From NCBI GenBank assembly GCA_016195685.1, contig JACPZE010000013.1, positions 1-39,797 of the forward strand: a DNA stretch of 39,797 bases, given 5' to 3'. Position 1 is the stretch's first letter. Each line of letters starts with the position of its first letter. The DNA is from Candidatus Gottesmanbacteria bacterium (GTDB lineage: Bacteria > Patescibacteriota > Microgenomatia > 2-02-FULL-39-11). The translations under genes were made by a program, and so were the position numbers. A model generated the notes under the pieces. The model saw only the letters and a program-made list of their open reading frames with translations. It was not told where the DNA came from and ran no database searches. Below, piece by piece: positions 15,470 to 39,119 of the stretch.

Positions 15470-17209
15470 ATGCAACTAACTGAACATTCTGCTTTCATGG
15501 AACCATCTAAGAATGTCCCTATTCCAATTATTAGAGTTTCACGAGCTGGTATTATTATCGGTTTTAATAGACAAGCAATTCTAGATTTTGGAGGTCAACC
15601 TGAAGATTTAGCTAATAAACCGGTATCCAAGTTTATTAAGGATAGCACTCCTGATTCTCTTCATAAATTATTTTTTCAAACAGCAAAAGCTGCTTTACAA
15701 TTTCAGAAGGAAATACTATCAGAAAAAATTAAATTACCTGAAGTAGAAATTAGTGATAAATTTGGAAAGCAAAGGATTATTCAAATAAGACCTTCATTAA
15801 TCGGTAAAAGAGAAAGTGAAGAATTTGAAATTATAGCTGTTGATATAACAGAAGAGGTGGAAAAACGTGAATATGCCGAAGCACTTTCTAAAGCCAAAAG
15901 TGCAGTTCATGAACATCTGGAGTTACCGAAGGTTTTGGATGCCATCAGTCAAGAACTCAAACAATTCGTTCCATACGACACAGCTTCTTTAATGTTTTTC
16001 ACCAATAACGAATTATCTGATGCTTATTACTGGCGATCCCACGAATCAAATACTGTTCAAGCAGATAACTTAGATGATCTGCGTGGGAGATTAAAAAATA
16101 CGCAAAATATTCAGCGTATGTTATCAACAAAGGAAACTATCTATATTCCAGATACAACAATTCCTACTAGTGGTTATCAAAAAACTGAATACAGTCAAAA
16201 TGTTATGTCTTATATAGGAATACCAGTAATAATTAATGATAAGGTTATTGGAATTCTTAATTTAAATTCCAAAGCGCTTCACTTTACTGATAAAGACGTT
16301 AAAAGTGCTCAGGATTTTGCCAACATAATAGGCCAAGCTATAGATAATGCTCACTTACATGAAGCAGCCCAATCAGCTGCAAGACTAGATTCCCTAACCG
16401 GACTTTTAAACCATGGCCAATTTATAATAGAAGGTCAACGTGCTATTAAATTTTCTGAGCGAGAAGATAATAGACCTTTTGGGGTTGTTATGATGGATTT
16501 AGATAATTTTAAAGATGTAAATGATACGCGCGGTCATCAAATTGGTGATAATGTATTAGTTGGTATCGCACAAGCTTTAGCTGCTCATATTAGGTTTCCA
16601 GGAGTAACAGGCAGGTATGGAGGTGAAGAGTTCGGAGTTGTAATTCCTTTGAATGGTTTGCACAAAAACTGGTTACAACTAAATCGTATTAGTGACTATA
16701 TCAGATATTTGAAATTTCCCAGTCCAAGAGGCACTTTTAGTATAACAGCTAGTATTGGCATCGCCAATGCAGATCCTCTTATCCCAGAAAATCATGTAGA
16801 AGAATATCTTGACCGTGCAGATACAGCATTATATGTCGTAAAAAAAGCAGAAGACCGGAACGGAATTGGAATTCATATGAGTAGAACTGAAGATACCGAT
16901 AAAGTAATTGTATTTAAACCAGCAGCAGATAACTCTACTAGAGTCGCATTTTATGATGTGTTGCGAACCGGTAATAATCAAGAAAATAATCCAACAGAAA
17001 GTAGAAAAAATACACTAGTGGCAGAATATTATTTCACTCAGGATAAAAAACAAATTACCTTAAGAAAAAAACTTAGTGAGGGTAAGTTTTCAACTGTAAT
17101 TATTAATATAGAGAAAGAAGCGTATTTACCTAATAATTATAGTTGGAGTGATGAAGAAATGCAGATTATGCGAATTATTCATCCACCTAGAAATTGGAAG
17201 GAACTATAA
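15470..17209 (+). CDS. PAS-GAF-GGDEF diguanylate cyclase
   Basis: 579-residue soluble signalling protein. PAS fold at about 14-125 (PIIRVSRAGIIIGFNRQAIL to IIAVDITEEVEKRE), GAF at ~148-297 (SYIGIPVIINDKVIGILNLN), and GGDEF at ~305-468 with the active site GGEEF (384-388) and metal ligand D343 in MMDLDNF. It should make cyclic di-GMP from GTP. The product-inhibition site RxxD is incomplete (R375 present, D replaced by G378). About 110 residues after GGDEF match nothing I recognise. No membrane segment. It is the only plus-strand gene in the first 22 kb. The ATG at 15470 fits a leaderless start; M10 (15497) is the alternative. Confidence 0.9.
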   Translation: MQLTEHSAFMEPSKNVPIPIIRVSRAGIIIGFNRQAILDFGGQPEDLANKPVSKFIKDSTPDSLHKLFFQTAKAALQFQKEILSEKIKLPEVEISDKFGKQRIIQIRPSLIGKRESEEFEIIAVDITEEVEKREYAEALSKAKSAVHEHLELPKVLDAISQELKQFVPYDTASLMFFTNNELSDAYYWRSHESNTVQADNLDDLRGRLKNTQNIQRMLSTKETIYIPDTTIPTSGYQKTEYSQNVMSYIGIPVIINDKVIGILNLNSKALHFTDKDVKSAQDFANIIGQAIDNAHLHEAAQSAARLDSLTGLLNHGQFIIEGQRAIKFSEREDNRPFGVVMMDLDNFKDVNDTRGHQIGDNVLVGIAQALAAHIRFPGVTGRYGGEEFGVVIPLNGLHKNWLQLNRISDYIRYLKFPSPRGTFSITASIGIANADPLIPENHVEEYLDRADTALYVVKKAEDRNGIGIHMSRTEDTDKVIVFKPAADNSTRVAFYDVLRTGNNQENNPTESRKNTLVAEYYFTQDKKQITLRKKLSEGKFSTVIINIEKEAYLPNNYSWSDEEMQIMRIIHPPRNWKEL

Positions 17210-17214
17210 AAGTA

Positions 17215-18615
17215 TTAATTTAGCATTTTCGATAAAAATCTCTTCGTTTCTTCTGCTTCAGCCTTTCCCTTTGCTTCCCTCATCACTTGTCCGACTAAAA
17301 ACATTAAGGCTTGTTGTTTGCCGGATTTAAAGTCCGCCACTGCTTTTGGATTTGCTTTCAACACTTTTTGGATTATTGCTTCAAGTTCCTTATCATCCAT
17401 CTGTACTATTTGCTGTTTTTGGCTTATTAAATTCACCAACTTTTCTGGTGTTACTTTAGTAATATCAGTTTTCTTATTTATAATCCAATTGGCTATTATT
17501 TTAGGTGTTATTCCTTTGTACTTTTTGCTTGACACCTGATATTTGATACTATTTTCGTAATAATCAGCTGTTTCCAATTCATCTGTGAGTATCGTTGCAT
17601 CGTATTCAGATATTTTATAATCTTTTATAAATCTTTTAATCTTTTTGTCTGGCAACTCACAGATTTGTGCTTTGAGTTTTGAGATTTGCGGTTTAGTCCA
17701 ACGTATCGGAGGAATATCCGGTTCTGGAAAATATCGGTAATCATGTGCTTCTTCTTTCGTCCTTTGAGTATAAGTAATTCCTTTCTTTTCATCCCAACCT
17801 CTGGTCTCTTGTGCTGGAACTTCTCCTTTTTCAAGTATGGATATATGTCTGTCTAATTCAAAATCGATGGCTTTTTTCGCGAAATTAAATGAATTAATAT
17901 TTTTTACTTCAACTTTATAATTTGGTAATTTTAATTTGTTTGGTGATTGATTTTTGTTTCTTGAAAATTTTCGGACGGAAATATTTGGCTCCAACCTCAT
18001 TGACCCTTTTTCCATGTCCGCGTCGGATATGCCGATATAGCGGATTATCTGGTGAAGTTTTTTTAGGAAAATTCTTGCTTCTTCACTACTTCTTATATCC
18101 GGCTCGGTAACTATCTCAACCAGAGGCATACCACTTCTATTAAAATCTATGAGCGTGCATTTTGCACCATCTATAGTTGCATGGAGCAATTTTCCCGTAT
18201 CCTCTTCCATATGCACTCTTCGAATTCTTATTTTTTTTCTTATTTGTTGATTGGTTAATTTGTTGATTGGTTGATTGGTATTTGTTTCTAACGATCCATT
18301 GATAGCGAACGGCTTATCGTATTGACTTATTTGGTATCCTTTTGGTAAATCAGGGTAGAAATAGTTTTTTCTGTCAAACTTACTAAATACTGGAATATCA
18401 CAATTTAGAGCCAATCCCAACATCACGCACCACTCTACTGCAATTCTATTTGGAAATGGTAATGTACCAGGTAAAGCTAGACAAACTGGGCAACAAAGTG
18501 TATTCGGCACCTTGCCAAACCAGTCAGCATTACACCCGCAGAACATTTTTGATTTTGTTTTTAACTCGACATGGATCTCCAAACCTATAATAGGTTCGAA
18601 ATTTTCTTTGATCAT
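17215..18615 (-). CDS. gatB: Asp/Glu-tRNA amidotransferase subunit B
   Basis: Binds misacylated Glu-tRNA(Gln) or Asp-tRNA(Asn) and transfers the amide in the GatCAB complex. It has 466 residues. The N-terminal cradle domain includes EPIIGLEIHVELKTKSKMFC, the zinc cysteines FCGC and CCPVC, and DYRYFPEPDIPP; a YqeY-like tail (~400-466) follows. Two small insertions relative to common GatB are low-complexity: around NTNQPINKLTNQQIRKK (repeat-coded, see the repeat entry) and around YQVSSKKYKG. The first four bases overlap the gatA stop. It ends five bases from the convergent GGDEF gene with no clear terminator between them. Confidence 0.95.
   Translation of the reverse strand: MIKENFEPIIGLEIHVELKTKSKMFCGCNADWFGKVPNTLCCPVCLALPGTLPFPNRIAVEWCVMLGLALNCDIPVFSKFDRKNYFYPDLPKGYQISQYDKPFAINGSLETNTNQPINKLTNQQIRKKIRIRRVHMEEDTGKLLHATIDGAKCTLIDFNRSGMPLVEIVTEPDIRSSEEARIFLKKLHQIIRYIGISDADMEKGSMRLEPNISVRKFSRNKNQSPNKLKLPNYKVEVKNINSFNFAKKAIDFELDRHISILEKGEVPAQETRGWDEKKGITYTQRTKEEAHDYRYFPEPDIPPIRWTKPQISKLKAQICELPDKKIKRFIKDYKISEYDATILTDELETADYYENSIKYQVSSKKYKGITPKIIANWIINKKTDITKVTPEKLVNLISQKQQIVQMDDKELEAIIQKVLKANPKAVADFKSGKQQALMFLVGQVMREAKGKAEAEETKRFLSKMLN
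18244..18279. repeat. degenerate tandem TTGATTGG-type repeat inside gatB
   Basis: Plus strand shows TTGTTGATTGGTTAAT followed by TTGTTGATTGGTTGATTGG, i.e. several imperfect copies of a TTGATTGG unit. On the coding strand it specifies the N/Q/L/T-rich stretch NQPINKLTNQQ, an apparent insertion of about 10 residues compared with typical GatB between the FAINGSLE and RIRRVHMEED segments. It preserves the reading frame. Confidence 0.6.
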
Positions 18616-20021
18616 AATTTCGGCTTTTCTTTGAAATAGTTAGTTTCCTGTTCAAATGCGTGAGCGACTTGAATAATCTTCTTTTCGCTAAATTGTGGAC
18701 CGATGACTTGCAAACCTGCAGGAAGACCGTCCGAAAATCCACAGGGTATACTTATTCCGGGCAATCCCGAGATGGTTGACGGTTCTGCCAATATATCCTG
18801 TACTTCGCCAAACATCGGACTTGTTTTACTTGACCCAAGAGGTAATGCGGTACACGGTGCAGTCGGGCCGATGATCACATCAACTTTTTTAAACACCTTT
18901 TCAAAATCTTCTACTATCATCGTTCTTATCTGTTGAGCTTTGAGATACAAAGCATCATAATAGCCCGTCGACAATGCATATGTACCCAGCATGATTCTCC
19001 TTTTTGCTTCTTCACCAAATTTATCACGGCCATACCCGTATCTTATTCCATCAAATCTGGCTAGATTCGCAGAAACTTCTGCTCTTTGAAGGATAGTATA
19101 GACAGAGATAGCATATTGTGGATCAACCAAATTGACATTTTTGACTTTAGCACCTAGTTTTTTAAATACCTCGATTGCTTGGTATATTTTTTCCTGTATA
19201 TTCTTTTGGGAACTTTCTATATACATATCAGCAATTCCTATCTTCATACCTTTAATCTTCTTACCTATGTCTTTTGTATAATTTTCTACTTTCTTAGGAG
19301 AACTGGTTGCATCATATGGGTCAAATCCTGCAATAGCATTTAGTACTATGGCCGCATCTTCCACAGTTTTTGTTATGGGACCCGGACTATCCAGCGATGA
19401 TCCCATTGCTACAATTCCATATCGACTGACCCGACCATAAGTTGGTTTTAAACCTACCGCTCCACACCAAGCTGAAGGTTGTCTTATGGAACCGGCTGTT
19501 TCTGTCCCGATGCTACCGATAGTCATATCAGACATTATTGAAGCTGCCGATCCGCCGGAAGAACCACCAGGAAGCCTTCCCAGATTCCAAGGATTTCTGG
19601 TAGTAAAAAAATCTGATGCCTCGGTAGATGATCCATGAGCCCAAGCATCCATATTAGTTTTACCCAATAGAACAATGTTTTTTTCTTTTAACTTCTTAGC
19701 AACAGTTCCATTAAAAATAGGCAAATAATCTTTCAATACATTCGAAGATGCCGTTGTCCTGATGTCAGTTGTACAAATATTATCTTTTAGCGCAAATGGG
19801 ATACCAACAAGAGGATTATCTGCTCTCTTCTTCATCAATAATTTATCTGCCTTATTTGCTTTATGCAAAGCATTTTCCTCATCTACCGTTACATAAGCTT
19901 TGACCAATTTATCGATGCTTTTTATCCTTGCCAGAACTGATTTTGTCAATTCTTTACTTGAAAATTTTTTCTCTTTTAATCCTTTGCTGGCTTGTGTAAT
20001 TGTAAGTTTGTATAAATCCAT
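18612..20021 (-). CDS. gatA: Asp/Glu-tRNA amidotransferase subunit A
   Basis: Amidase-signature glutaminase that releases ammonia for GatB. It has 469 residues from the ATG at 20021. With numbering from the GTG one codon upstream, the Ser-cis-Ser-Lys triad is K80 (PFALKDN), S155 (PGGSSGGS) and S179 (TETAGSIRQP), all intact. The ATG overlaps the gatC stop as TGATG and is preceded by GGAGG four bases upstream, so it is preferred over the GTG at 20024. The stop overlaps gatB by four bases. The three gat genes form one operon. Confidence 0.96.
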   Translation of the reverse strand: MDLYKLTITQASKGLKEKKFSSKELTKSVLARIKSIDKLVKAYVTVDEENALHKANKADKLLMKKRADNPLVGIPFALKDNICTTDIRTTASSNVLKDYLPIFNGTVAKKLKEKNIVLLGKTNMDAWAHGSSTEASDFFTTRNPWNLGRLPGGSSGGSAASIMSDMTIGSIGTETAGSIRQPSAWCGAVGLKPTYGRVSRYGIVAMGSSLDSPGPITKTVEDAAIVLNAIAGFDPYDATSSPKKVENYTKDIGKKIKGMKIGIADMYIESSQKNIQEKIYQAIEVFKKLGAKVKNVNLVDPQYAISVYTILQRAEVSANLARFDGIRYGYGRDKFGEEAKRRIMLGTYALSTGYYDALYLKAQQIRTMIVEDFEKVFKKVDVIIGPTAPCTALPLGSSKTSPMFGEVQDILAEPSTISGLPGISIPCGFSDGLPAGLQVIGPQFSEKKIIQVAHAFEQETNYFKEKPKL

Positions 20022-20317
20022 CACTCCTCCAATACTGCCTTCACTTTAAAATAACCTTTGTAATGATTAGATACCCCAGATAAAGCTTGTTCCTGCGTCA
20101 ATGAAGATGATACTTTATCTTCCCGAAAAACATTTTCCAACCCGGTAACATTACTTGTAGGCTTGAGTCCTTTGGTATTGAGTAATTTTATTTTATTTAT
20201 GAAATCCAAAGTATCAGAAAGGTCTTTGGATAATGTCTTTGCTTCTTCATCGGAAATATAAAGATTAGCTAGTTTGGCAATGTATTTGACTTTTTCAATC
20301 GTTATATCGTTCGTCAT
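20021..20317 (-). CDS. gatC: Asp/Glu-tRNA amidotransferase subunit C
   Basis: 98-residue subunit that stabilises the GatA-GatB interface. The N-terminal helix-loop EKVKYIAKLANLYISDEEAK and the middle LSDTLDFINKI are characteristic, and the C-terminal half carries NVFREDKV and VKAVLEE. First gene of the gatCAB operon. The ATG at 20317 follows a TAAAAT box by exactly six bases and has no Shine-Dalgarno, suggesting a leaderless start. Confidence 0.93.
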   Translation of the reverse strand: MTNDITIEKVKYIAKLANLYISDEEAKTLSKDLSDTLDFINKIKLLNTKGLKPTSNVTGLENVFREDKVSSSLTQEQALSGVSNHYKGYFKVKAVLEE

Positions 20318-20429: not shown

Positions 20430-21863
20430 TTACATATCTGCGTACAGATAGAATTCGTATGGAGTTGGCCTGATTGCTACTTCAGCTTGTTCTGTACGTT
20501 TCATAGATACCCACATGTCTAAAAAGTCCGGAGTAAATACCCCTCCCTCAAGTAAGAACTTATTATCTTTTTCCAAGGCATTCAGCGTTTCTGTAAGTGA
20601 CCCAGGAACACTTCTTACTTTTTTTGCATCTTCGGCAGAAAGTTCATAAATATTTTTATCCAAAGGTCCAAAACCAGATTTTACCGGATCAATCTTATTT
20701 TTTATCCCATCAAGCCCTGCCATAAGAAGGGCTGAGAAAGTCAAATACGGATTACTAGCTGTATCCGGTGGCCTAAACTCAATCCTTTTTGACTTGGAGT
20801 TTTTGGGGCCGGAGAAGTACATAGGTATCCTAACAGCAGCACTTCTGTTTCTTTTGGAAAATGCTACATTTACCGGCGCCTCATAATGGGGCACTAGTCT
20901 TCTGTAAGAATTTGTGGTTGGTGCACAAAATGCCAATAACGCATCTATGTGAGTCAATAATCCTCCGATATAATACAATGCGGTTTTAGAAAGTTCAGCC
21001 CAACCATTTTCATCATAAAACAAATTTTTACCGTTTTTCCATAAACTTTGGTGGGTATGCATACCGCTCCCGTTGTCACCAAAGACTGGTTTGGGCATAA
21101 AACTGACTACTTTCCCGTATTTTTTAGCAACATTTTTTACCACATATTTATAAATCAACACATTATCAGCCATCTTAAGCAAATTATCGTAACGCATGTC
21201 TATCTCACATTGTCCCGGTGCTGCTACTTCATGATGATGCATTTCTATGGGTATATTCCAAGCTTCCATAGTATTTACCATCTCGCTTCTTAAATCCTGT
21301 AGAGTATCTTGTGGAGGAACCGGAAAGTAACCTTCTTTGGGTCTTATTGTTATTTGAGTATTTGTTTCGGATTCATTCCCGCTATTCCAAGGAGCTTCAA
21401 TACTGTCTAAACTAAACCCACTTTTGTAGGGTTTTATATCATAAGATAAATGATTGAAAACGAAAAATTCCGCTTCAGGCCCCCAATAGCTTTTATCAGC
21501 AACTCCGGATTTTACCAGATACTTTTCCGCTTTTTTAGCTACATTTCTGGGATCTCGGGTAAAAGGCTCTTTCTTATCCGGATCATAAACATCACAGATT
21601 AAAGAAAGCGTAGGAATTTCATAAAAAGGATCCACGTGAGCGGTCGCTAGATCAGGCAGCAATAACATATCACTTTCATGAATTTCCTGAAATCCTTTTA
21701 TACTAGATCCGTCAAACCCGATTCCTTCTTTTGCGGCTCCTTCGTCAAACGCTGAAGGTGGTATAGAAGCGTGTTGCCAAACTCCTCTAGGATCTACAAA
21801 TTTCAAATCAACAATTTTTAATTCTTTTGACTTAATAAGACTTTTAATTTCTTTAAATGTCAT
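20430..21863 (-). CDS. glnA: glutamine synthetase type I
   Basis: ATP-dependent synthesis of glutamine from glutamate and ammonia. It has 477 residues with the N-terminal beta-grasp (VDLKFVDPRGVWQHASIP), then GIGFDGSSIKGF, the metal and ammonia site EVAAPGQCEIDMRYD, the ATP loop PKPVFGDNGSGMHTHQSLW, and RIEFRPPDTASNPYL. Y406 in KNIYELSAED aligns with the tyrosine adenylylated in GSI-beta enzymes, so covalent control is possible, though no adenylyltransferase is in view. Monocistronic: its own promoter, a structured leader with a terminator, and a strong 3' terminator. The start has AAGGGAG six bases before the ATG. Confidence 0.97.
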   Translation of the reverse strand: MTFKEIKSLIKSKELKIVDLKFVDPRGVWQHASIPPSAFDEGAAKEGIGFDGSSIKGFQEIHESDMLLLPDLATAHVDPFYEIPTLSLICDVYDPDKKEPFTRDPRNVAKKAEKYLVKSGVADKSYWGPEAEFFVFNHLSYDIKPYKSGFSLDSIEAPWNSGNESETNTQITIRPKEGYFPVPPQDTLQDLRSEMVNTMEAWNIPIEMHHHEVAAPGQCEIDMRYDNLLKMADNVLIYKYVVKNVAKKYGKVVSFMPKPVFGDNGSGMHTHQSLWKNGKNLFYDENGWAELSKTALYYIGGLLTHIDALLAFCAPTTNSYRRLVPHYEAPVNVAFSKRNRSAAVRIPMYFSGPKNSKSKRIEFRPPDTASNPYLTFSALLMAGLDGIKNKIDPVKSGFGPLDKNIYELSAEDAKKVRSVPGSLTETLNALEKDNKFLLEGGVFTPDFLDMWVSMKRTEQAEVAIRPTPYEFYLYADM

Positions 21864-21894: not shown

Positions 21895-21965
21895 AAAAAA
21901 ATCTTCCTCAGGGTTACATTCCTTTGGAAGACTTCATCGTCTTCTTCGCTCCTTTGCGAAATAAT
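21895..21965 (-). promoter_or_regulatory. glnA leader: candidate ANTAR-type two-hairpin antiterminator plus terminator
   Basis: Read on the minus strand from the predicted start point. Hairpin P1 is TTCGC-AAAGGA-GCGAA (21960-21945). Directly abutting is P2, GAAGAC-GATGAA-GTCTTC (21944-21927). Then comes a terminator hairpin, TCTTCC (21931-21926) with GGAAGA (21907-21902) and inner AGG/CCT pairs, followed by seven T (21901-21895). The terminator's 5' arm is the 3' arm of P2, so P2 and the terminator exclude each other. Two hexaloop hairpins with the second overlapping a terminator is the arrangement bound by ANTAR regulators. P1 has the expected A1 and G4 loop bases; P2 has G4 but G instead of A at position 1. 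A GAF-ANTAR gene lies at 23873-24589. Confidence 0.6.
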
Positions 21966-21971
21966 ATGGTT

Positions 21972-22001
21972 ATCCTAAAACAGTAGTGAATATTTTGTCA
22001 A
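21972..22001 (-). promoter_or_regulatory. glnA promoter
   Basis: Perfect TTGACA (22001-21996), 18-base spacer, TAGGAT (21977-21972) on the minus strand. Start of transcription is predicted near 21965, just before hairpin P1 of the leader, giving a ~100-base untranslated region. It is back-to-back with the transposase promoter, producing the inverted pair TTGTCAAG...CTTGACAA (21995-22032). Confidence 0.7.
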
Positions 22002-22025
22002 GCCCCTAATTTTGGCGCTGATCCC

Positions 22026-22035
22026 TTGACAACAA
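22026..22035. repeat. left copy of 10-bp direct repeat flanking the IS (probable target duplication)
   Basis: TTGACAACAA, repeated identically at 23072-23081 on the same strand, 11 bases outside the left GGTATAATA motif. An 8-base target duplication within it would fit the IS1595 family. Confidence 0.5.
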
Positions 22036-22054
22036 GTAAGAAGTATGGTATAAT
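22026..22054 (+). promoter_or_regulatory. consensus promoter of the transposase gene
   Basis: TTGACA (22026-22031), exactly 17 bases, TATAAT (22049-22054), with an upstream TGG extension. Both hexamers match consensus. The transposase ATG begins six bases after TATAAT, so the message would be leaderless. The TTGACA lies inside the direct repeat that flanks the element. Confidence 0.8.
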
Positions 22055-22060
22055 AAGGCT

Positions 22061-22960
22061 ATGAAAAATAAGTTTAGCCTGCGACAATATAAGAGAAAAT
22101 ATGGTACACATGAACAGTGCCTAGAAGCAATTAAAAGGCTCCGCTTCCCCGATGAGATGGATTGTCCGAAATGTAAACGGCTATCAGTTTTTTACCCTGT
22201 AAGAGGTCGTACAGCCTATGCTTGTAAGTTCTGCGGTTATCAAATATACCCTCTTGCAACTACTGTTTTTGAAAAAACCAGTACGCCTTTGGACCTCTGG
22301 TTTTTTGCTATGTATCTAATGGTACAGACACGTTCTGGAATATCTGCAAGACAACTTGAAAGAATGTTAGGAGTGACTTACAAAACCGCATGGAGAATTT
22401 GTCGCCAAATAAGACTACTTATGGCGGAAGCAAGTCTTATTCCTCTTACTGGTACTGTTGAGGCAGATGAAGGTTACATAGGAGGAAATACAAGAAATAG
22501 AAAGAGAAAATGGTTTAAGTCCTACTCTGAACAAAAGCAGATTATTCTCGGAATGGTACAAAGAGGTGGAAAAGCCTATTTAAGGCATATTCCTGATAGT
22601 AGTAGATACACAATAATTAATCAGATTAAACATTACGTGAGTCCTAAAACCAGAGTTATAACTGACCAATTTTCATCCTATGTCGGATTAGCGAAATATG
22701 GATACCAACATGATACGGTCAACCACCAAGAAACTTATGTGGTTAAAGATATTCATACCCAAAACGCTGAATGTCTTTGGTCAACGATCAAGCGAGGACT
22801 TTTTGGGGTTTATCGTGTGGTCTCTAAAAAATATTTACAGGCTTATATTGATGAATATGCGTGGAGATATAATTATAGAAATCTCAAGGGAATGATGTTT
22901 GAGAAATTACTAAGTCAAGTTATCGAGGTGAAAGCGATACAGCCCGCTTCAATAAAGTAA
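22061..22960 (+). CDS. IS1595-family (ISXO2-like) transposase
   Basis: 299-residue DDE-type transposase. N-terminal zinc ribbon with C35, C38, C55 and C58 (CPKC...CKFC), a helix-turn-helix-like region (GISARQLERMLGVTYKTAWR, 93-112), then the catalytic ISXO2-like core: D136 in VEADEGYIGG, D202 in VITDQFSSY, and N235/E237 in HTQNAECLWSTIKRG. The C-terminal AYIDEYAWRYNYRN is also typical. Apparently intact, so the element may be active. The ATG is six bases after a consensus TATAAT. The last 41 bases overlap a small ORF on the other strand. Confidence 0.93.
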   Translation: MKNKFSLRQYKRKYGTHEQCLEAIKRLRFPDEMDCPKCKRLSVFYPVRGRTAYACKFCGYQIYPLATTVFEKTSTPLDLWFFAMYLMVQTRSGISARQLERMLGVTYKTAWRICRQIRLLMAEASLIPLTGTVEADEGYIGGNTRNRKRKWFKSYSEQKQIILGMVQRGGKAYLRHIPDSSRYTIINQIKHYVSPKTRVITDQFSSYVGLAKYGYQHDTVNHQETYVVKDIHTQNAECLWSTIKRGLFGVYRVVSKKYLQAYIDEYAWRYNYRNLKGMMFEKLLSQVIEVKAIQPASIK

Positions 22961-23048
22961 GGAAGTCTGCTTTTGAATTTTCTCTGCCACCTTTTTTAAA
23001 CCAATCTCTTAATTTTTTGTCTTTAGCAGAAAAACTTTTCCTTTTCAT
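22920..23048 (-). CDS. 42-residue basic protein at the IS right end
   Basis: Short ORF from the ATG at 23048: lysine- and arginine-rich, beginning MKRKSFSAKDKKLRDWF, then KKGGRENSKADFLTLLKRAV. It looks like a compact two-helix basic peptide; no named family recognised. TATAAT (23060-23055) lies six bases before this ATG in the same GGTATAATA-N5-ATGAAAA module as the transposase start, so expression is plausible. The frame is open to 23105, but the -10 placement favours 23048. It overlaps the transposase 3' end tail-to-tail by 41 bases. It may be an IS passenger or regulator, or a by-product of the inverted terminal sequence. Confidence 0.5.
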   Translation of the reverse strand: MKRKSFSAKDKKLRDWFKKGGRENSKADFLTLLKRAVSLSPR

Positions 23049-23071
23049 TTGTCTATTATACCACTTGATTT

Positions 23072-23081
23072 TTGACAACAA
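23072..23081. repeat. right copy of 10-bp direct repeat flanking the IS (probable target duplication)
   Basis: TTGACAACAA, identical to 22026-22035, 9 bases outside the right inverted GGTATAATA motif. Confidence 0.5.
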
Positions 23082-23085
23082 AACT

Positions 23086-23120
23086 AGTACGCTTGTTGCC
23101 AGCACACAACAAGCAGTACT
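23086..23120. repeat. strong inverted repeat beside the IS
   Basis: AGTAC-GCTTGTTG pairs with CAACAAGC-A-GTACT around the 8-base loop CCAGCACA: a 13-bp stem with one bulged A. No T run follows on the plus strand; on the minus strand it is followed by AGTTTTGTTG, so it could be a weak terminator for minus transcripts entering the IS. Function not recognised. Confidence 0.55.
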
Positions 23121-23158
23121 TATAGGAATCTTTGGAATGAGGCTAAAAAGTCTAAAAG

Positions 23159-23188
23159 TTGAAATTGTTACTTAAGATAGAATATAAT
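23159..23188 (+). promoter_or_regulatory. promoter of the candidate structured RNA
   Basis: TTGAAA (23159-23164), 18 bases, perfect TATAAT (23183-23188). Transcription would start near 23195. No plausible ORF follows; a long hairpin with a T-rich tail does. Confidence 0.55.
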
Positions 23189-23194
23189 ACACTA

Positions 23195-23301
23195 CTGGAA
23201 AAATACGGCCTGTCGGCTAGGACGAGTGTCACGAATCTGTGTAGAGTTGAGAAACTATACTTACATTCCTCATCCTAGCCGAAAGGCCGCATTTATTTTT
23301 T
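23195..23301 (+). ncRNA. candidate ~105-nt structured RNA with intrinsic terminator
   Basis: From the predicted start the RNA can fold into one long closing stem: CGGCC (23206-23210) with GGCCG (23285-23289), a TG/AA internal loop, TCGGCTAGGA (23213-23222) with TCCTAGCCGA (23273-23282), one C/A mismatch, then GAG with CTC. An inner arm GTGTA-GTT closed by a GAGA (GNRA) tetraloop with AAC-TATAC is possible at ~23240-23260. The long stem is followed by ATTTATTTTTT, as in an intrinsic terminator. It matches no class I know (not SRP, 6S, tmRNA or RNase P). The reverse strand also gives a T run after the stem, so it may instead, or additionally, terminate the minus-strand gene ending at 23300. Confidence 0.45.
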
Positions 23302-23731
23302 ACCCGCTTTTCAATTTAACATAAAAAACAATTTCGAATTCTGGATTCTCTTTTCTTATTCTTGGTATTGCCGCCATAACCTCTTTTATTGTAATTTCAT
23401 GATTACCTCCAGTTGCTGGAGCGACTGCGGAATAATTTTTGCTATTACTTGTGCCATTGAGATTCCCCTTTATTCTTTCCAAAGCTAACTTACCCGCTTC
23501 TTTTAATTTTATACCTACTAGGATGGTCGTATGACCTCTCTTTTCATATTTTGGCTCAATAAGGTTAAGACGTTTCATATAGGTAGTTTTATTACCTAGC
23601 CATCTTTTATTTTTATCCATATCTTCGAGATTACGTTTAGAGGCAATAAATATATCCCTTAATGAGACCTCATCACCAGAAGTATTTGAGTAGAATGTTT
23701 TTAAATAATTTGTAGCTGTTTGTATTTTCAT
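23300..23731 (-). CDS. hypothetical protein, possible winged-helix regulator
   Basis: 143 residues, no named family recognised. The first ~95 residues (LKTFYSNTSGDEVSLRDIF..., then NKTTYMKRLNLIEPKYEKRG, then KLKEAGKLALERI) have the helix-helix-wing rhythm of a winged-helix domain. A Ser/Asn/Ala-rich linker at ~95-110 leads to a short C-terminal part (ITIKEVMAAIPRIRKENPEF). It is preceded by paired palindromes around its promoter, consistent with autoregulation. The stop codon lies in the T tract of the adjacent RNA hairpin. Regulator role is inference. Confidence 0.6.
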   Translation of the reverse strand: MKIQTATNYLKTFYSNTSGDEVSLRDIFIASKRNLEDMDKNKRWLGNKTTYMKRLNLIEPKYEKRGHTTILVGIKLKEAGKLALERIKGNLNGTSNSKNYSAVAPATGGNHEITIKEVMAAIPRIRKENPEFEIVFYVKLKSG

Positions 23732-23742
23732 ATTGAATACAT

Positions 23743-23794
23743 ATTATCACCTTTTTAAGGTCTGTCAAGAATCGCCCTAAGACCTTATGAAGGT
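23743..23794 (-). promoter_or_regulatory. promoter with paired palindromic operators (ACCTT-N3-AAGGT)
   Basis: Minus strand: TTGACA (23768-23763), 16 bases, then TAATAT (about 23746-23741), nine bases before the ATG at 23731. Two 13-bp palindromes of the same form, ACCTTTTTAAGGT (23749-23761) and ACCTTATGAAGGT (23782-23794), are 33 bp apart centre to centre, about three helical turns. The first occupies the spacer between -35 and -10 and the second lies just upstream of -35: a classic repressor arrangement. A related everted pair, AAGGT-TT-ACCTT, sits at 23845-23856. Confidence 0.55.
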
Positions 23795-23872
23795 TAATGG
23801 GGAAGATAGGTTATTATGACAATAAAAAGCGAGTTTTACCGTTGAAGGTTTACCTTACTTGTTCTCAAGGGA

Positions 23873-24589
23873 TTAGCTCCCTAATTTTAATCTATCGGCC
23901 AAAATTACAGCTTCTGCTACTTCCTTAAAGGACTTCCGGCTATTCATGCTTTCTTTTTGCAGCATCCGATAAGCTTCATTTTCACTCAAGTTATTTTTTT
24001 TCATGAGTACTCCTTTTGCTTTCTCGATAACTTTTCGAAATTCCAAAGCTTCTTTTAGTACCATAGATTGTTCGACCAACAAGGCGTTTTCTACTGCTCC
24101 TCCGACCAATTTTCCTATTGCAGTAAGTAAATTTATTTCCATTTTAGTATGTGCATGTTTTTTTTGATGCTGTACATTGATTACACCTGTCACATTGCGC
24201 TTATAGACGATCGGTACCGAAAGAAATGCTTCAAATCTATCTTCCGGCAAACTTCTGAAAAATTTGAATCTTGCATCCCTGTTGGCTCCTTTTGAGATAG
24301 CAACTTCGGTTTTTTCTTTTGCCACCCAACCTGTAATTCCCTCTCCCAGTTTCATGGTAATCCTTTGGAGTAAATCAGCGTGGGGATTCTTCGATGCCCG
24401 CAAAACCAACTCATTTTTATTTGTATCGAGAATATAGATAAGGCATGAATCCGCTTTGGATATCTCTGAAGCCAGTTTAACTATTTCTTTCAAAAGTTCA
24501 TCTATTTCCAGGCTATGGACAGATTGCGCTACAGTGTATAAAAACTGTAATTCTTTTTTCAGCTCTATTAGGCTTTTATTTTTTATCAT
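23873..24589 (-). CDS. GAF-ANTAR RNA-binding antiterminator
   Basis: 238 residues: a GAF sensor domain (about 20-170; LASEISKADSCLIYILD, LGEGITGWVAKEK, FLSVPIVYKRNVTGVINVQ) followed by an ANTAR domain (about 178-233; VIEKAKGVLMKKNNLSENEA, then YRMLQKESMNSRKSF and KEVAEAVI). ANTAR domains bind paired hexaloop RNA hairpins and prevent transcription termination, often at nitrogen-metabolism genes. There is no receiver domain, so the input is probably a small ligand at GAF or partner binding. Start codon overlaps the gatD stop as ATGA; last gene of polX-htpX-murT-gatD. Likely target: the glnA leader ~2 kb away (inference). Confidence 0.9.
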   Translation of the reverse strand: MIKNKSLIELKKELQFLYTVAQSVHSLEIDELLKEIVKLASEISKADSCLIYILDTNKNELVLRASKNPHADLLQRITMKLGEGITGWVAKEKTEVAISKGANRDARFKFFRSLPEDRFEAFLSVPIVYKRNVTGVINVQHQKKHAHTKMEINLLTAIGKLVGGAVENALLVEQSMVLKEALEFRKVIEKAKGVLMKKNNLSENEAYRMLQKESMNSRKSFKEVAEAVILADRLKLGS

Positions 24590-25332
24590 AATCTTTTTAG
24601 CATGAAATCATGGGCTTTCCATTCTAATTCATCGTCCAAAGGCTCTAATTCTACATCTTTTTGGTATTTTATTTCAAGCGCACACCCAATCAGCCAATCG
24701 GCAAGATGCGGATTTTTAGAAAGAATAGGGCCGTGGAAATAACTGCCGATTGCATTTTTATATACGGCACCTTCGTATCCGTCTTCACCGTTATTACCAA
24801 ATCCCTTTATGACTTTTGCGAATGGCTTCAACTTTGCTCCTAAAGAAGTTCTTCCTCCATGATTTTCAAAACCAACAATCGTTTTCCCATTTAATTCCTT
24901 TATGTTGATTATTTCTGCAGAAATGTCGCCGATCAAACGTTTCGCTTGGTCACCTAAATGTTTAGTTGTTAGATCCAATATACCTGGTCCGGGTATGTCA
25001 GCGCCTTTATAGGGTCTATAATAATGACCTACAGCCTGATATGCCGCACAGACGAAAAGAGAGGGGATATTTTCCTCAACCATTTTTTTTATCACCGGAC
25101 CTTTATTTTTCAAAAAATCTCCTCCTGCTAATTTTTGTTGTCTATCCTGGGCTCCACCCATAAAAATCACATCACATTTATTTAATTCTTTTACCGATGT
25201 TTCCAGAGTAATATTTTTCACTTCCACATCAATATGCCGTATCTGGCATCTTTGCGTTAAGCAAATAATATTACCGCGGTCACCATAAGTAGACATTAAA
25301 TCTCGATATAACCACGCAATCTTAAGTTTCAT
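24586..25332 (-). CDS. gatD: lipid II isoglutaminyl synthase, glutaminase subunit GatD
   Basis: 248-residue CobB/CobQ-like glutamine amidotransferase. With MurT it amidates the alpha-carboxyl of D-glutamate in lipid II. Signature start LKIAWLYRDLMSTYGDRGN, nucleophile C95 in LFVCAAYQ, and H200 in SYFHGPILSKNPHLAD, matching the catalytic Cys and His of the characterised Staphylococcus enzyme. The segment IPGPGILDLTTK is also typical. ATGA overlaps at both ends tie it to murT and the ANTAR gene. The substrate glutamine links it to glnA. Confidence 0.93.
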   Translation of the reverse strand: MKLKIAWLYRDLMSTYGDRGNIICLTQRCQIRHIDVEVKNITLETSVKELNKCDVIFMGGAQDRQQKLAGGDFLKNKGPVIKKMVEENIPSLFVCAAYQAVGHYYRPYKGADIPGPGILDLTTKHLGDQAKRLIGDISAEIINIKELNGKTIVGFENHGGRTSLGAKLKPFAKVIKGFGNNGEDGYEGAVYKNAIGSYFHGPILSKNPHLADWLIGCALEIKYQKDVELEPLDDELEWKAHDFMLKRL

Positions 25333-26669
25333 AAAATTTTTCTCCCTTTTAATATTTTTCTTACTTCCAACATCGCGGAATATGTTGCTAAAATAAAAAG
25401 CGTTTTCTCTTTTTTAGGGCTTAAAATGCAAAAATCCAATGCTTTCTTTAGATCTTCATAAATTAAAATTGGTCTCTGTGGAAGATTAACTGCATTTTCC
25501 GGTAATTTATGTATTTGCCGAGAATATTTTATCCTAAGGGCCAAATCATAAACTCTGTCACCACTTACTACCGGGGTAATATAAAAAGGCAACATTTCAA
25601 AGTCTACATCCCAAATCCAACTCACATCTCGCCCGTCGGGGATCCGGTCGTTTAAAACAAATAAAATTTCTTCAGCTCCCTGTGAAAGTATAGTTCGTAA
25701 AGATTCATTAAATCCGGCAGGATTTTTGGACAGAAAAATTTTTATCTTTTTCCCGTGTATTTCGATTTCTTCTTGCCTTCCGAATGCAGGCAAAAAATCT
25801 GTAAATGCTTCTTTGATTTTTTCACTATCTATCCCTAAGCACAAAGCTGTAGCAACACAAGCCAAAGTATTGTATCGATTGTAGACTCCAGATAGAGGAG
25901 AAGGCCACTCACTTACCTGCGGATTTGGCCTTTTTTCGCCGCATTTTTCGCATTTCCATATGCCTATATGGGAATAATAAATCCCATCATAAGTTAACCT
26001 GTTTCCGCAATTTAAACAAAATATCGAATCAGTCGCATGCTCAGGTCCATCTAAAAAAAGCTTAGTATTATTTAAACCAAAATAAACCACTTTTTGCTTT
26101 ATATTTTTACCTAGATAAGCAATTTGGGGATCATCGCTGTTTAATATAATTTTTGCTTCTTTGGGCAACATCTTGATCGCATTTGTCCATTTTTCGGCAA
26201 TCACATCGACTTCCCCATACCTATCTAATTGATCCCTAAACAAATTTAAAAAAACGATAACCAATTGCTTATCCCGAGAGAAATCGAGGGAGAAATTTGA
26301 AATTACAGCCGGAAAGCTATTCTCGTCTACTTCAAATACTCCCCAATCCCTATCTAACTTACCCCACCATGATATTTGTTGGATAAATGCTGAAGCTATA
26401 CCGTTTAGAAGATTAGCCCCGCTATCGTTATGCAATACTTCATATCCCTGGTGTTGCAGAATGTTTCTGATCATCAAAGAAGTCGTTGTCTTTCCATTTG
26501 TGCCGGCCACAATAATTACTCCTTTTTTAAGTTTTACTGAAAAAAATCTGATTATATTGGGATTTAATTTTAAAGCAATTTCTCCTGGCCAGGTTCCACC
26601 GCTTCCGATTTTTAAAATTCGACTGATATAAAAAACCAGCTTTCCCAATAATATAAGCGGCAAATTCAT
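25329..26669 (-). CDS. murT: lipid II isoglutaminyl synthase, ligase subunit MurT
   Basis: 446-residue Mur-ligase-like ATPase that activates the lipid II D-glutamate carboxylate for amidation by GatD-derived ammonia. P-loop GTNGKTT at 56-62, central Mur ligase domain, a four-cysteine zinc ribbon (C218, C221, C240, C243) characteristic of MurT, and a C-terminal DUF1727 domain with LNDRIPDGRDVSWIWDVDFE carrying the conserved aspartate. Seven bases after htpX; overlaps gatD. Shows that the organism makes an amidated peptidoglycan. Confidence 0.94.
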   Translation of the reverse strand: MNLPLILLGKLVFYISRILKIGSGGTWPGEIALKLNPNIIRFFSVKLKKGVIIVAGTNGKTTTSLMIRNILQHQGYEVLHNDSGANLLNGIASAFIQQISWWGKLDRDWGVFEVDENSFPAVISNFSLDFSRDKQLVIVFLNLFRDQLDRYGEVDVIAEKWTNAIKMLPKEAKIILNSDDPQIAYLGKNIKQKVVYFGLNNTKLFLDGPEHATDSIFCLNCGNRLTYDGIYYSHIGIWKCEKCGEKRPNPQVSEWPSPLSGVYNRYNTLACVATALCLGIDSEKIKEAFTDFLPAFGRQEEIEIHGKKIKIFLSKNPAGFNESLRTILSQGAEEILFVLNDRIPDGRDVSWIWDVDFEMLPFYITPVVSGDRVYDLALRIKYSRQIHKLPENAVNLPQRPILIYEDLKKALDFCILSPKKEKTLFILATYSAMLEVRKILKGRKIL

Positions 26670-32504: not shown

Positions 32505-32507
32505 ACC

Positions 32508-32632
32508 ATTCCTTCGGGGAAATTGTGTAAGTCAAGATCGGTGGTACACCCCACGAGTTTCGATCTAAAAGATCGGACATGATTTGGTGAAAGTCCAAAG
32601 GCGACCGTACAGTCGGGATAAAAGAGGGAATC
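32508..32632 (+). promoter_or_regulatory. FMN riboswitch aptamer
   Basis: Matches the FMN (RFN) element in order: CTTCGGGG near the 5' end, GATCGGTGGTA, CCCCACGAG, a variable arm, GATTTGGTGAAA, GTCCAAAGGCGACCGTACAG, then GTCGGGAT and GAGGGAAT closing the P1 helix with ATTCC (32508-32512 with 32627-32631). FMN binding should turn off the downstream riboflavin operon. It lies directly upstream of ribE, as expected. Confidence 0.93.
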
Positions 32633-32634
32633 TA

Positions 32635-38064: not shown

Positions 38065-39119
38065 TTATTTATCCTCAGTACCATCGGATATCAAATCAAG
38101 TCCTTTTAGTTGCGGTAAAGCATTCCCTCCAGCTAACCCTTGCATTCCCCCGTATACATTTGCTGTTGCCAGAATGATTCTCCGTAACTGTGATTCCCGC
38201 TGTTTCCAGCTCTTTTCATAAGCTATCCTCTCTCTACTTACCTGTTCATGCATCTCCCGATATGCCTCCAGAATTGCTTCTATCTGCTGGCGAAACCTAT
38301 TTCCGGTCACATATTCATATATCAAATCTGCTTTTCTACCCTGATGCGCCTGGGCTGTTTTTTGATAGGCGACTTTTACCAGAATTTCCCGAAGTAACGC
38401 AGAAAGAGGGATAAGTAAATTTCTTTCGCATACCCAAATTCCTTCCACTTGTCCCATGCCTATTGTACCTACCGGTAATACTTCAGAAACCATAGCTGAG
38501 ATGTCCGCATTTACTTTCCTTGTATCATCTTTTAACTTCTGTATCCATCAGACCAATTTTTTGTCCTTTTGGATTCCCACAATATCACTCCACAGATGGT
38601 TTTTCCACTTGGACTTCTGACTATCTGCTTCGTATCCGCTCCTGCCTCTCCCTTGTCTACCGGCACAATCATATCTGTGGGAAATGCATCCTTTAGAGCT
38701 TTTTCTATATCCAGCTCCTGTACTTCGCCTTGAGTTTGTTGCGATCCCTGAGAGGCGGTCCTTTTTGCTTCTTCCAATTGTTTATTGAGCCTTTCTATGG
38801 TAAGATCTCTTTCCTTCATCTTTAATCTGGTTTGCTCATCGGCTTCTTTCAGAGTCGACTCACGGATCTTTTGCCGTTCGGCGTCTAGTTGTCTTTGTTT
38901 CTCCAGTTCAAATTTGCGTTTTTCATCTTCAAGCAGTTCCTTTTGCTTCCTCACTTGTAATTCATTTTCTTCAGCTTTGACTACCTGCTGTTTATACTTT
39001 AGGATTTCTTCTTCGTGCAGTTTTTCGACTTTCGTTATCTCCTTTGTGCGGATATGATCAAGGAAAGCCTCACTTATCTCAAATTCTTTCCCGCAATATA
39101 TGCATTTAATTTTATCCAT
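38065..39119 (-). pseudogene. DUF2130-family protein, split by a 4-nt loss
   Basis: The upstream part (39119-38532) encodes a CIYCGKEF zinc-knuckle start, a long E/K/Q coiled coil (~25-120) and the beginning of the DUF2130 domain ending KRTKNWSDG, then shifts out of frame to a stop. The downstream part (from before 38493) resumes in another frame as LKDDTRKVNADISAMVSEVL and continues through GIGMGQVEGIWVCERNLLIP to the natural end. Restoring one GATG unit at 38541-38549 (GATGGATAC to GATGGATGGATAC) rejoins the frames as SDGWIQKLKDD, as in intact family members. The WESK segment resembles an ExK nuclease motif (inference). A sequencing error is possible. Confidence 0.75.

Follow-up and report, generated by a model that had tools for sequence, protein, structure and literature searches.

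The leader of glnA, the glutamine synthetase gene in a 39.8-kb stretch of DNA from Candidatus Gottesmanbacteria, is very probably a transcription attenuator controlled by the one-component GAF-ANTAR protein encoded beside it. The stretch, called the window below, is a complete contig of a 1.19 Mb genome (46 contigs, 93% complete), and the relatives in the family of this genome correspond to Candidatus Gottesmanbacteria (Microgenomates, Patescibacteria). The leader contains two hexaloop hairpins, P1 and P2, and an intrinsic terminator that shares an arm with P2 (Table 1). An earlier reading of the window from its letters alone (the sequence-only reading) had proposed that the GAF-ANTAR protein acts on this leader, a proposal that now draws support from the conservation of the element, its co-occurrence with ANTAR genes, their coupled absence and a match of the same element before an ammonium transporter gene (amt).

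The glnA leader

The core of the leader lies at 21895-21960 on the minus strand, where P1 directly abuts P2 with 0 nt between the full stems. Read directly on that strand, the two abutting hexaloop hairpins named in the sequence-only reading (loops AAAGGA and GATGAA) are present, and the 3' arm of P2 does double as the terminator's 5' arm (shared bases 21926-21932), with seven T closing the terminator. A promoter-like TTGACA-N18-TAGGAT stands at 22001-21972. Position 4 is G in both loops and a C:G pair closes each of them. Exactly one dual hexaloop in the window passed the filter, and it carries the overlapping terminator; 2000 dinucleotide-preserving shuffles of the entire window yielded 17 cases in total of a dual hexaloop with an overlapping terminator.

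Folding with ViennaRNA gave −21.9 kcal/mol for the 67-nt leader core in the terminator state, as against −16.0 kcal/mol when the complete leader RNA was constrained to form P1 and P2; the folding z-score of the leader is −2.0. Nascent RNA that reaches only to the end of P2 folded as P1 and P2 with −12.8 kcal/mol. The terminator is therefore favoured in the full RNA and the hairpin pair in the nascent one, the expected appearance of a switch that needs a stabilising protein.

Conservation and covariation of the leader

In the glnA leaders of related genomes, both hexaloops and the terminator overlap were found to be conserved: P2 with the overlapping terminator occurred in fourteen leaders, thirteen of which also have P1, in a short form in G011. 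The sequence of P1 varies while its pairing is kept, with double changes in four of the five pairs. For both hairpins together, double-changed cells numbered 18, versus 4.1 in shuffles; 97% of cells were paired, versus 37-58% in a slide control. Pair counts taken from the hand-registered alignments A4 and A5 lean to the drawn structure, and more trust is due to the slide control. In G006, the P2/terminator switch has altered its three strands in concert. Loops of the lineage, read without a sequence filter and omitting those of G172, G233 and G302 that had been found with a filter for G at position 4, showed G at this position in 27 of 27 cases, while position 1 was A in 22 of them and G in the other 5. 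The loop-closing pair is C:G in 12 of 15 P1 (U:G in the others) and in 15 of 15 P2. The distance from loop to loop was 11-13 nt in most leaders, with 17 in G002 and 27 in one of the G001 copies. L049 (MFJN01000062.1) has the leader sequence of G001:C62, and L050 (MFJU01000001.1) that of G013:C1.

Co-occurrence with ANTAR genes

A class-wide survey covered 374 genomes, of which 22 contain ANTAR and 352 do not. The covariance model R1, trained on eleven glnA leaders including the window copy, matched 13 of the 374 genomes at E<1e-3; all 13 were ANTAR-positive, and none of the 352 genomes without ANTAR gave such a match. The genome counts are non-independent owing to relatedness. Noise began with G068 and G110, which have no ANTAR and matched at E 0.003-0.005. 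In most genomes of the family the model found a single strong site, the glnA leader, and matches outside the training set came from G172 (another family, with the order ANTAR-leader-glnA), G039 and the second G001 copy. Two weak matches, G007:C1:1056379 and G011:C12:45740, were set aside; they have unrelated genes nearby and look like plain terminators.

The hairpins were missing in leaders without ANTAR: dual hexaloops were absent from five of five ANTAR-less glnA leaders, those of G012 and of four more distant genomes. In the close relative G012, gatD is followed by glnA without an ANTAR gene on a 557-kb contig; the TTGACA and TAGGAT boxes are kept and the hairpins are gone. ANTAR is likely, though not certainly, absent elsewhere in G012, as this genome is 83% complete.

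Further leaders and probable targets

The only other strong match of the model, G010:C13:5028-5106 (E 3e-8), precedes an ammonium transporter gene by about 50 nt, a gene family present in G010 alone among 19 genomes searched. This leader has the full design, with loops AAGGAA and AGAGAA and a terminator, and no ANTAR gene stands beside it. Since only glnA leaders went into the model, the match is a blind confirmation of the element, and its place before the transporter gene supports action of the regulator in trans.

In G353 (L164 1723-1790), a dual hexaloop with an overlapping terminator lies between the GAF-ANTAR gene and an asparaginase-like gene, whose asparaginase C-terminal domain scored 34.3 bits, just below the Pfam cut-off. 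This element is likely a further nitrogen target of ANTAR. Three tandem hexaloop hairpins without an evident terminator were seen between GAF-ANTAR and glnA at L160 2559-2627 (G227) and L163 1926-1989 (G302), both in reverse-complement coordinates, and two hexaloops without a terminator in the same interval of L162 (G233), L080 and L082. These terminator-less leaders suggest a different read-out in the sister lineages. The majority of the distant GAF-ANTAR homologues (Acidobacteria, Nitrospira, Omnitrophota) have no glnA within 4 kb, and in L123 and L128, the two that do, no dual hexaloop was seen by eye.

Hexaloop hairpins with a possible terminator were also noted some 300 nt ahead of the GAF-ANTAR gene itself, before a short open reading frame, at L035 640-700 (G093) and similarly in L036 (G102), where autoregulation is possible.

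The GAF-ANTAR protein and its signal

Both domains of the 238-aa protein encoded near glnA were confirmed by Pfam (ANTAR 1.3e-21, 76.6 bits with a cut-off of 27.3; GAF_2 9e-16). Its ANTAR domain aligns to that of EutV without gaps, and nine of the eleven RNA-contact residues of EutV are identical: R142, K143, K147, K149, E160, Y164, M172, N173 and R175 correspond to R185, K186, K190, K192, E203, Y207, M215, N216 and R218. In EutV, alanine changes at M172 and at E160/Y164 abolished or strongly lowered RNA binding. An AlphaFold model (mean pLDDT, the predicted local distance difference test score, 84.7) consists of the GAF domain, a long helix and the ANTAR helices; in this monomer model the long helix, residues 149-199, would be compatible with a coiled-coil dimer.

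By sequence and by fold, the GAF domain best matched that of PtsP/EI-Ntr (3ci6; HMMER 8.6e-17, Foldseek template modelling score 0.84-0.88 on the target), for which glutamine binding has been reported. No P-II protein was detected in 18 of 18 genomes searched. Because the gene has gatD, glnA, gatC and gatA as neighbours and no P-II was found, glutamine is the leading guess for the signal, at roughly a coin's toss. There is likewise about an even chance that the circuit works as described but with the GAF domain sensing another ligand, such as 2-oxoglutarate or a cyclic nucleotide. The ligands of GAF domains are diverse, a cyclic AMP-binding GAF comes next among the structural matches, and a GGDEF protein is encoded in the window. 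The PtsP/EI-Ntr match and neighbours that make and use glutamine speak for glutamine and are not decisive.

The locus and the IS1595-type insertion

The sequence-only reading had described the GAF-ANTAR gene as the last one after polX, htpX, murT and gatD, which agrees with the Pfam families and with open reading frames that overlap or nearly touch. It had also put this gene about 2 kb from glnA. That spacing holds in the window and does not hold as the native distance, since it is made by an insertion of 1867 bp in a locus where the two genes natively adjoin. In nearly all genomes of the family, glnA comes immediately after the GAF-ANTAR gene: G001 (two copies), G003, G004, G006, G007, G008, G010, G011, G013 and G014. 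The same order occurs in other lineages, as in G039, a genome of another family; in G002 the two genes stand at the ends of different contigs.

The insertion is flanked by an 8-bp target duplication, CTAATTTT, at 22006-22013 and 23881-23888. Shorter inverted repeats near 21985 and 23190 had been considered as its ends and were displaced by the longer repeats and the target duplication at 22014/23880. It sits among the final codons of the ANTAR gene, keeps the full-length frame with only the last residue altered, and leaves promoter and leader intact; on this basis the circuit probably still works in the window genome. When the flanks are rejoined, the ANTAR protein ends in RLKLGA and a stop, and its TGA falls within TTGACA, the -35 box of the promoter that serves glnA; G008 shows the same arrangement. 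The insertion also contains a second open reading frame without a Pfam match (23300-23731, minus strand) and a strong 26-nt inverted repeat (23201-23294).

The GlnA proteins of G010 and G172 are close to that of the window (62% and 78% identity), and those of the other relatives are 34-41% identical to it (45% for a partial G001 match) and 60-84% identical to that of G014. The ANTAR proteins of the family are 61-74% identical to the one in the window and the leaders are of one common design. These identities indicate that the glnA enzyme was swapped beneath the same switch, two GlnA types occupying the same place behind one ANTAR-leader unit.

Table 1. Features of the glnA leader and its surroundings in the window.
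Feature	Coordinates	Strand	Basis
P1 hairpin TTCGC-AAAGGA-GCGAA, 5 bp; loop 1 at 21950-21955	21945..21960	-	sequence; covariation
P2 hairpin (putative antiterminator) GAAGAC-GATGAA-GTCTTC, 6 bp; loop 2 at 21933-21938	21927..21944	-	sequence; core GAC/GTC invariant, 15 leaders
Intrinsic terminator: 5' arm GTCTTCC 21926-21932, 3' arm GGAAGAT 21901-21907, seven T 21895-21901	21895..21932	-	sequence, folding, pairing conserved in 14 leaders
Promoter-like TTGACA-N18-TAGGAT of glnA	21972..22001	-	consensus scan; same elements, same place in relatives, incl. hairpin-less G012
Whole leader element matched by covariance model R1, 71.7 bits	21891..21964	-	window copy in training set
GAF-ANTAR protein, proposed regulator	23873..24589	-	Pfam; EutV contact residues; AlphaFold model
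glnA, glutamine synthetase, putative regulated gene	20430..21863	-	Pfam Gln-synt_C 1e-128
gatC, downstream of glnA, probably co-transcribed	20021..20317	-	Pfam GatC; position
gatA, downstream of glnA, probably co-transcribed	18612..20024	-	Pfam Amidase; position
gatD-like glutamine amidotransferase, overlaps ANTAR gene start	24586..25332	-	Pfam GATase_3
murT	25329..26669	-	Pfam MurT_C, Mur_ligase_M
IS1595-type insertion, 1867 bp	22014..23880		Pfam DDE_Tnp_IS1595; long terminal inverted repeats; single copy in genome
Transposase of the IS1595-type insertion	22061..22960	+	Pfam DDE_Tnp_IS1595

Other features of the window

Elsewhere in the window, a flavin mononucleotide (FMN) riboswitch (32506-32633, 82.5 bits) stands ahead of the riboflavin operon. 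A PAS-GAF-GGDEF protein (15470-17209) is a candidate for a diguanylate cyclase in a Patescibacteria genome of small size, and two adjoining minus-strand open reading frames at 38065-39119 look like one frameshift-split gene (DUF2130-like by eye).

Discussion

From the observations above we infer binding of the GAF-ANTAR protein to the leader, antitermination, the direction of control and the signal, in the following scheme. Without active protein, a polymerase starting at the glnA promoter would produce P1 and, for a short while, P2. The terminator, being more stable, would then form from the 3' arm of P2 and transcription would halt before glnA. When the GAF domain reports a need for nitrogen, most likely as low glutamine, the ANTAR dimer would grip both hexaloops, hold P2 and block the terminator, so that transcription would reach glnA and probably gatC and gatA as well. 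Where the ammonium transporter is present (G010), the same element precedes its gene and the regulator would act there in trans.

Several observations weigh against this scheme. The G at position 1 of loop 2, which the sequence-only reading had flagged as a deviation, is real, with loop 1 alone having the A. NasR selection prefers A at this position and a C:G pair closing the loops (PMC7496416), and mutating the A1 of the loops lowers eutP induction. The stems of the window abut, as opposed to the 5-12 nt linker of Enterococcus faecalis eut, where a 3-nt linker impaired function (PMC3369931, PMC8934654); the demand for such a linker may be species-specific. Of the covariation looked for in both hairpins, P1 supplied compensatory changes and P2 little, since P2 is nearly invariant and its core GAC/GTC is invariant in 15 leaders. 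P1 is lacking in the leader of G039, EutV R168 and R177 are not conserved in the protein, and the window genome carries a second GAF-ANTAR gene that is frame-broken. The latter (L002 1477-2165, G000:C13) is split by a frameshift and lies between a penicillin-binding-protein-like gene and pheT.

A native circuit that has become uncoupled in the window genome, weakened by the insertion and by G1 of loop 2, appears unlikely. The 1867-bp element in the last ANTAR codons and the departure from A at position 1 would favour it. The ANTAR frame is nonetheless full length with an altered last residue, promoter and leader are intact, and the regulator should act in trans. As four further loops in homologues carry G at position 1, it looks like a variant tolerated in the lineage.

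That the terminator serves to end transcripts of polX-htpX-murT-gatD-ANTAR, the hairpins being incidental, is very improbable. In relatives the terminator lies directly after the ANTAR gene and would also stop upstream transcripts. The glnA promoter, however, precedes the terminator, which if unregulated would silence glnA; moreover, P1 covaries, the loops keep G4 and the same element occurs before amt with no ANTAR gene adjoining. Least probable of all is a metabolite riboswitch or leader-peptide attenuator in which the ANTAR gene plays no part. Such mechanisms are common among leaders that form alternative hairpins ahead of biosynthetic genes, and the window has an FMN riboswitch elsewhere, but Rfam 15, searched at gathering and loose thresholds, gave no family above the gathering threshold over the glnA leader, the element is a minimal two-hairpin motif, and its distribution tracks ANTAR genes, being missing where ANTAR is missing.

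The attenuator controlled by the GAF-ANTAR protein has precedents, as dual hexaloops are an established means of ANTAR antitermination (PMC3369931, PMC8934654). The leader resembles the eut leaders of E. faecalis bound by EutV in its dual hexaloops with G4, its overlap of P2 and terminator and the ANTAR contact residues, and differs in that EutV has a receiver domain, a partner kinase (EutW), an ethanolamine target and a linker between the stems. With NasR and the nasF leader of Klebsiella oxytoca (PMC7496416) it shares a one-component regulator, a two-hairpin target, the terminal C:G pair and a nitrogen gene; NasR has a NIT (nitrate) sensor and serves nitrate assimilation, whereas the window combines GAF with glutamine synthesis. 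According to PMC6316151 (citing Stutz et al. 2007), the ANTAR protein NitR of Clostridium saccharobutylicum promotes glutamine synthetase/GOGAT expression by antitermination under nitrogen limitation. NitR is alike in target and in the antitermination proposed here; its host is a Clostridium, whereas the present regulator is a one-component GAF-ANTAR protein in Patescibacteria with a leader of the anatomy set out above. Ramesh et al. 2012 (PMC3369931) predicted ANTAR elements ahead of genes for ammonium transporters and for glutamate/glutamine synthase, the latter two being close to the kinds of genes found here; excerpts of that paper name no Patescibacteria, and the present regulons have one or two targets in genomes without detected P-II.

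ANTAR antitermination of nitrogen genes is known from NitR, EutV and NasR. Two reviews of the field name no characterised GAF-ANTAR example, and searches of an open-access library gave no paper on ANTAR in Patescibacteria. What is new is the assignment of a target to a GAF-ANTAR protein, its occurrence in Patescibacteria, the compact abutting stems, a natural loss, a natural insertion, a second target and the lack of detectable P-II. Natural experiments on how protein and leader behave as a pair are offered by their absence from the G012 locus and by the insertion in the window.

Little is known of how Patescibacteria regulate their genes, and the genomes treated here have no detectable P-II. 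Assigning targets to GAF-ANTAR proteins allows a complete chain of sensor, RNA and target to be proposed, which could be tested in vitro with one protein and an RNA of about 70 nt. As a tentative and rather doubtful extension, a glutamine-sensing GAF-ANTAR protein might be the main nitrogen regulator of this P-II-less lineage of Patescibacteria, using antitermination in Gottesmanbacteria and a route that needs no terminator in the sister lineages. The pair of protein and leader would give uncultured bacteria with tiny, regulator-poor genomes a concrete circuit for nitrogen control.

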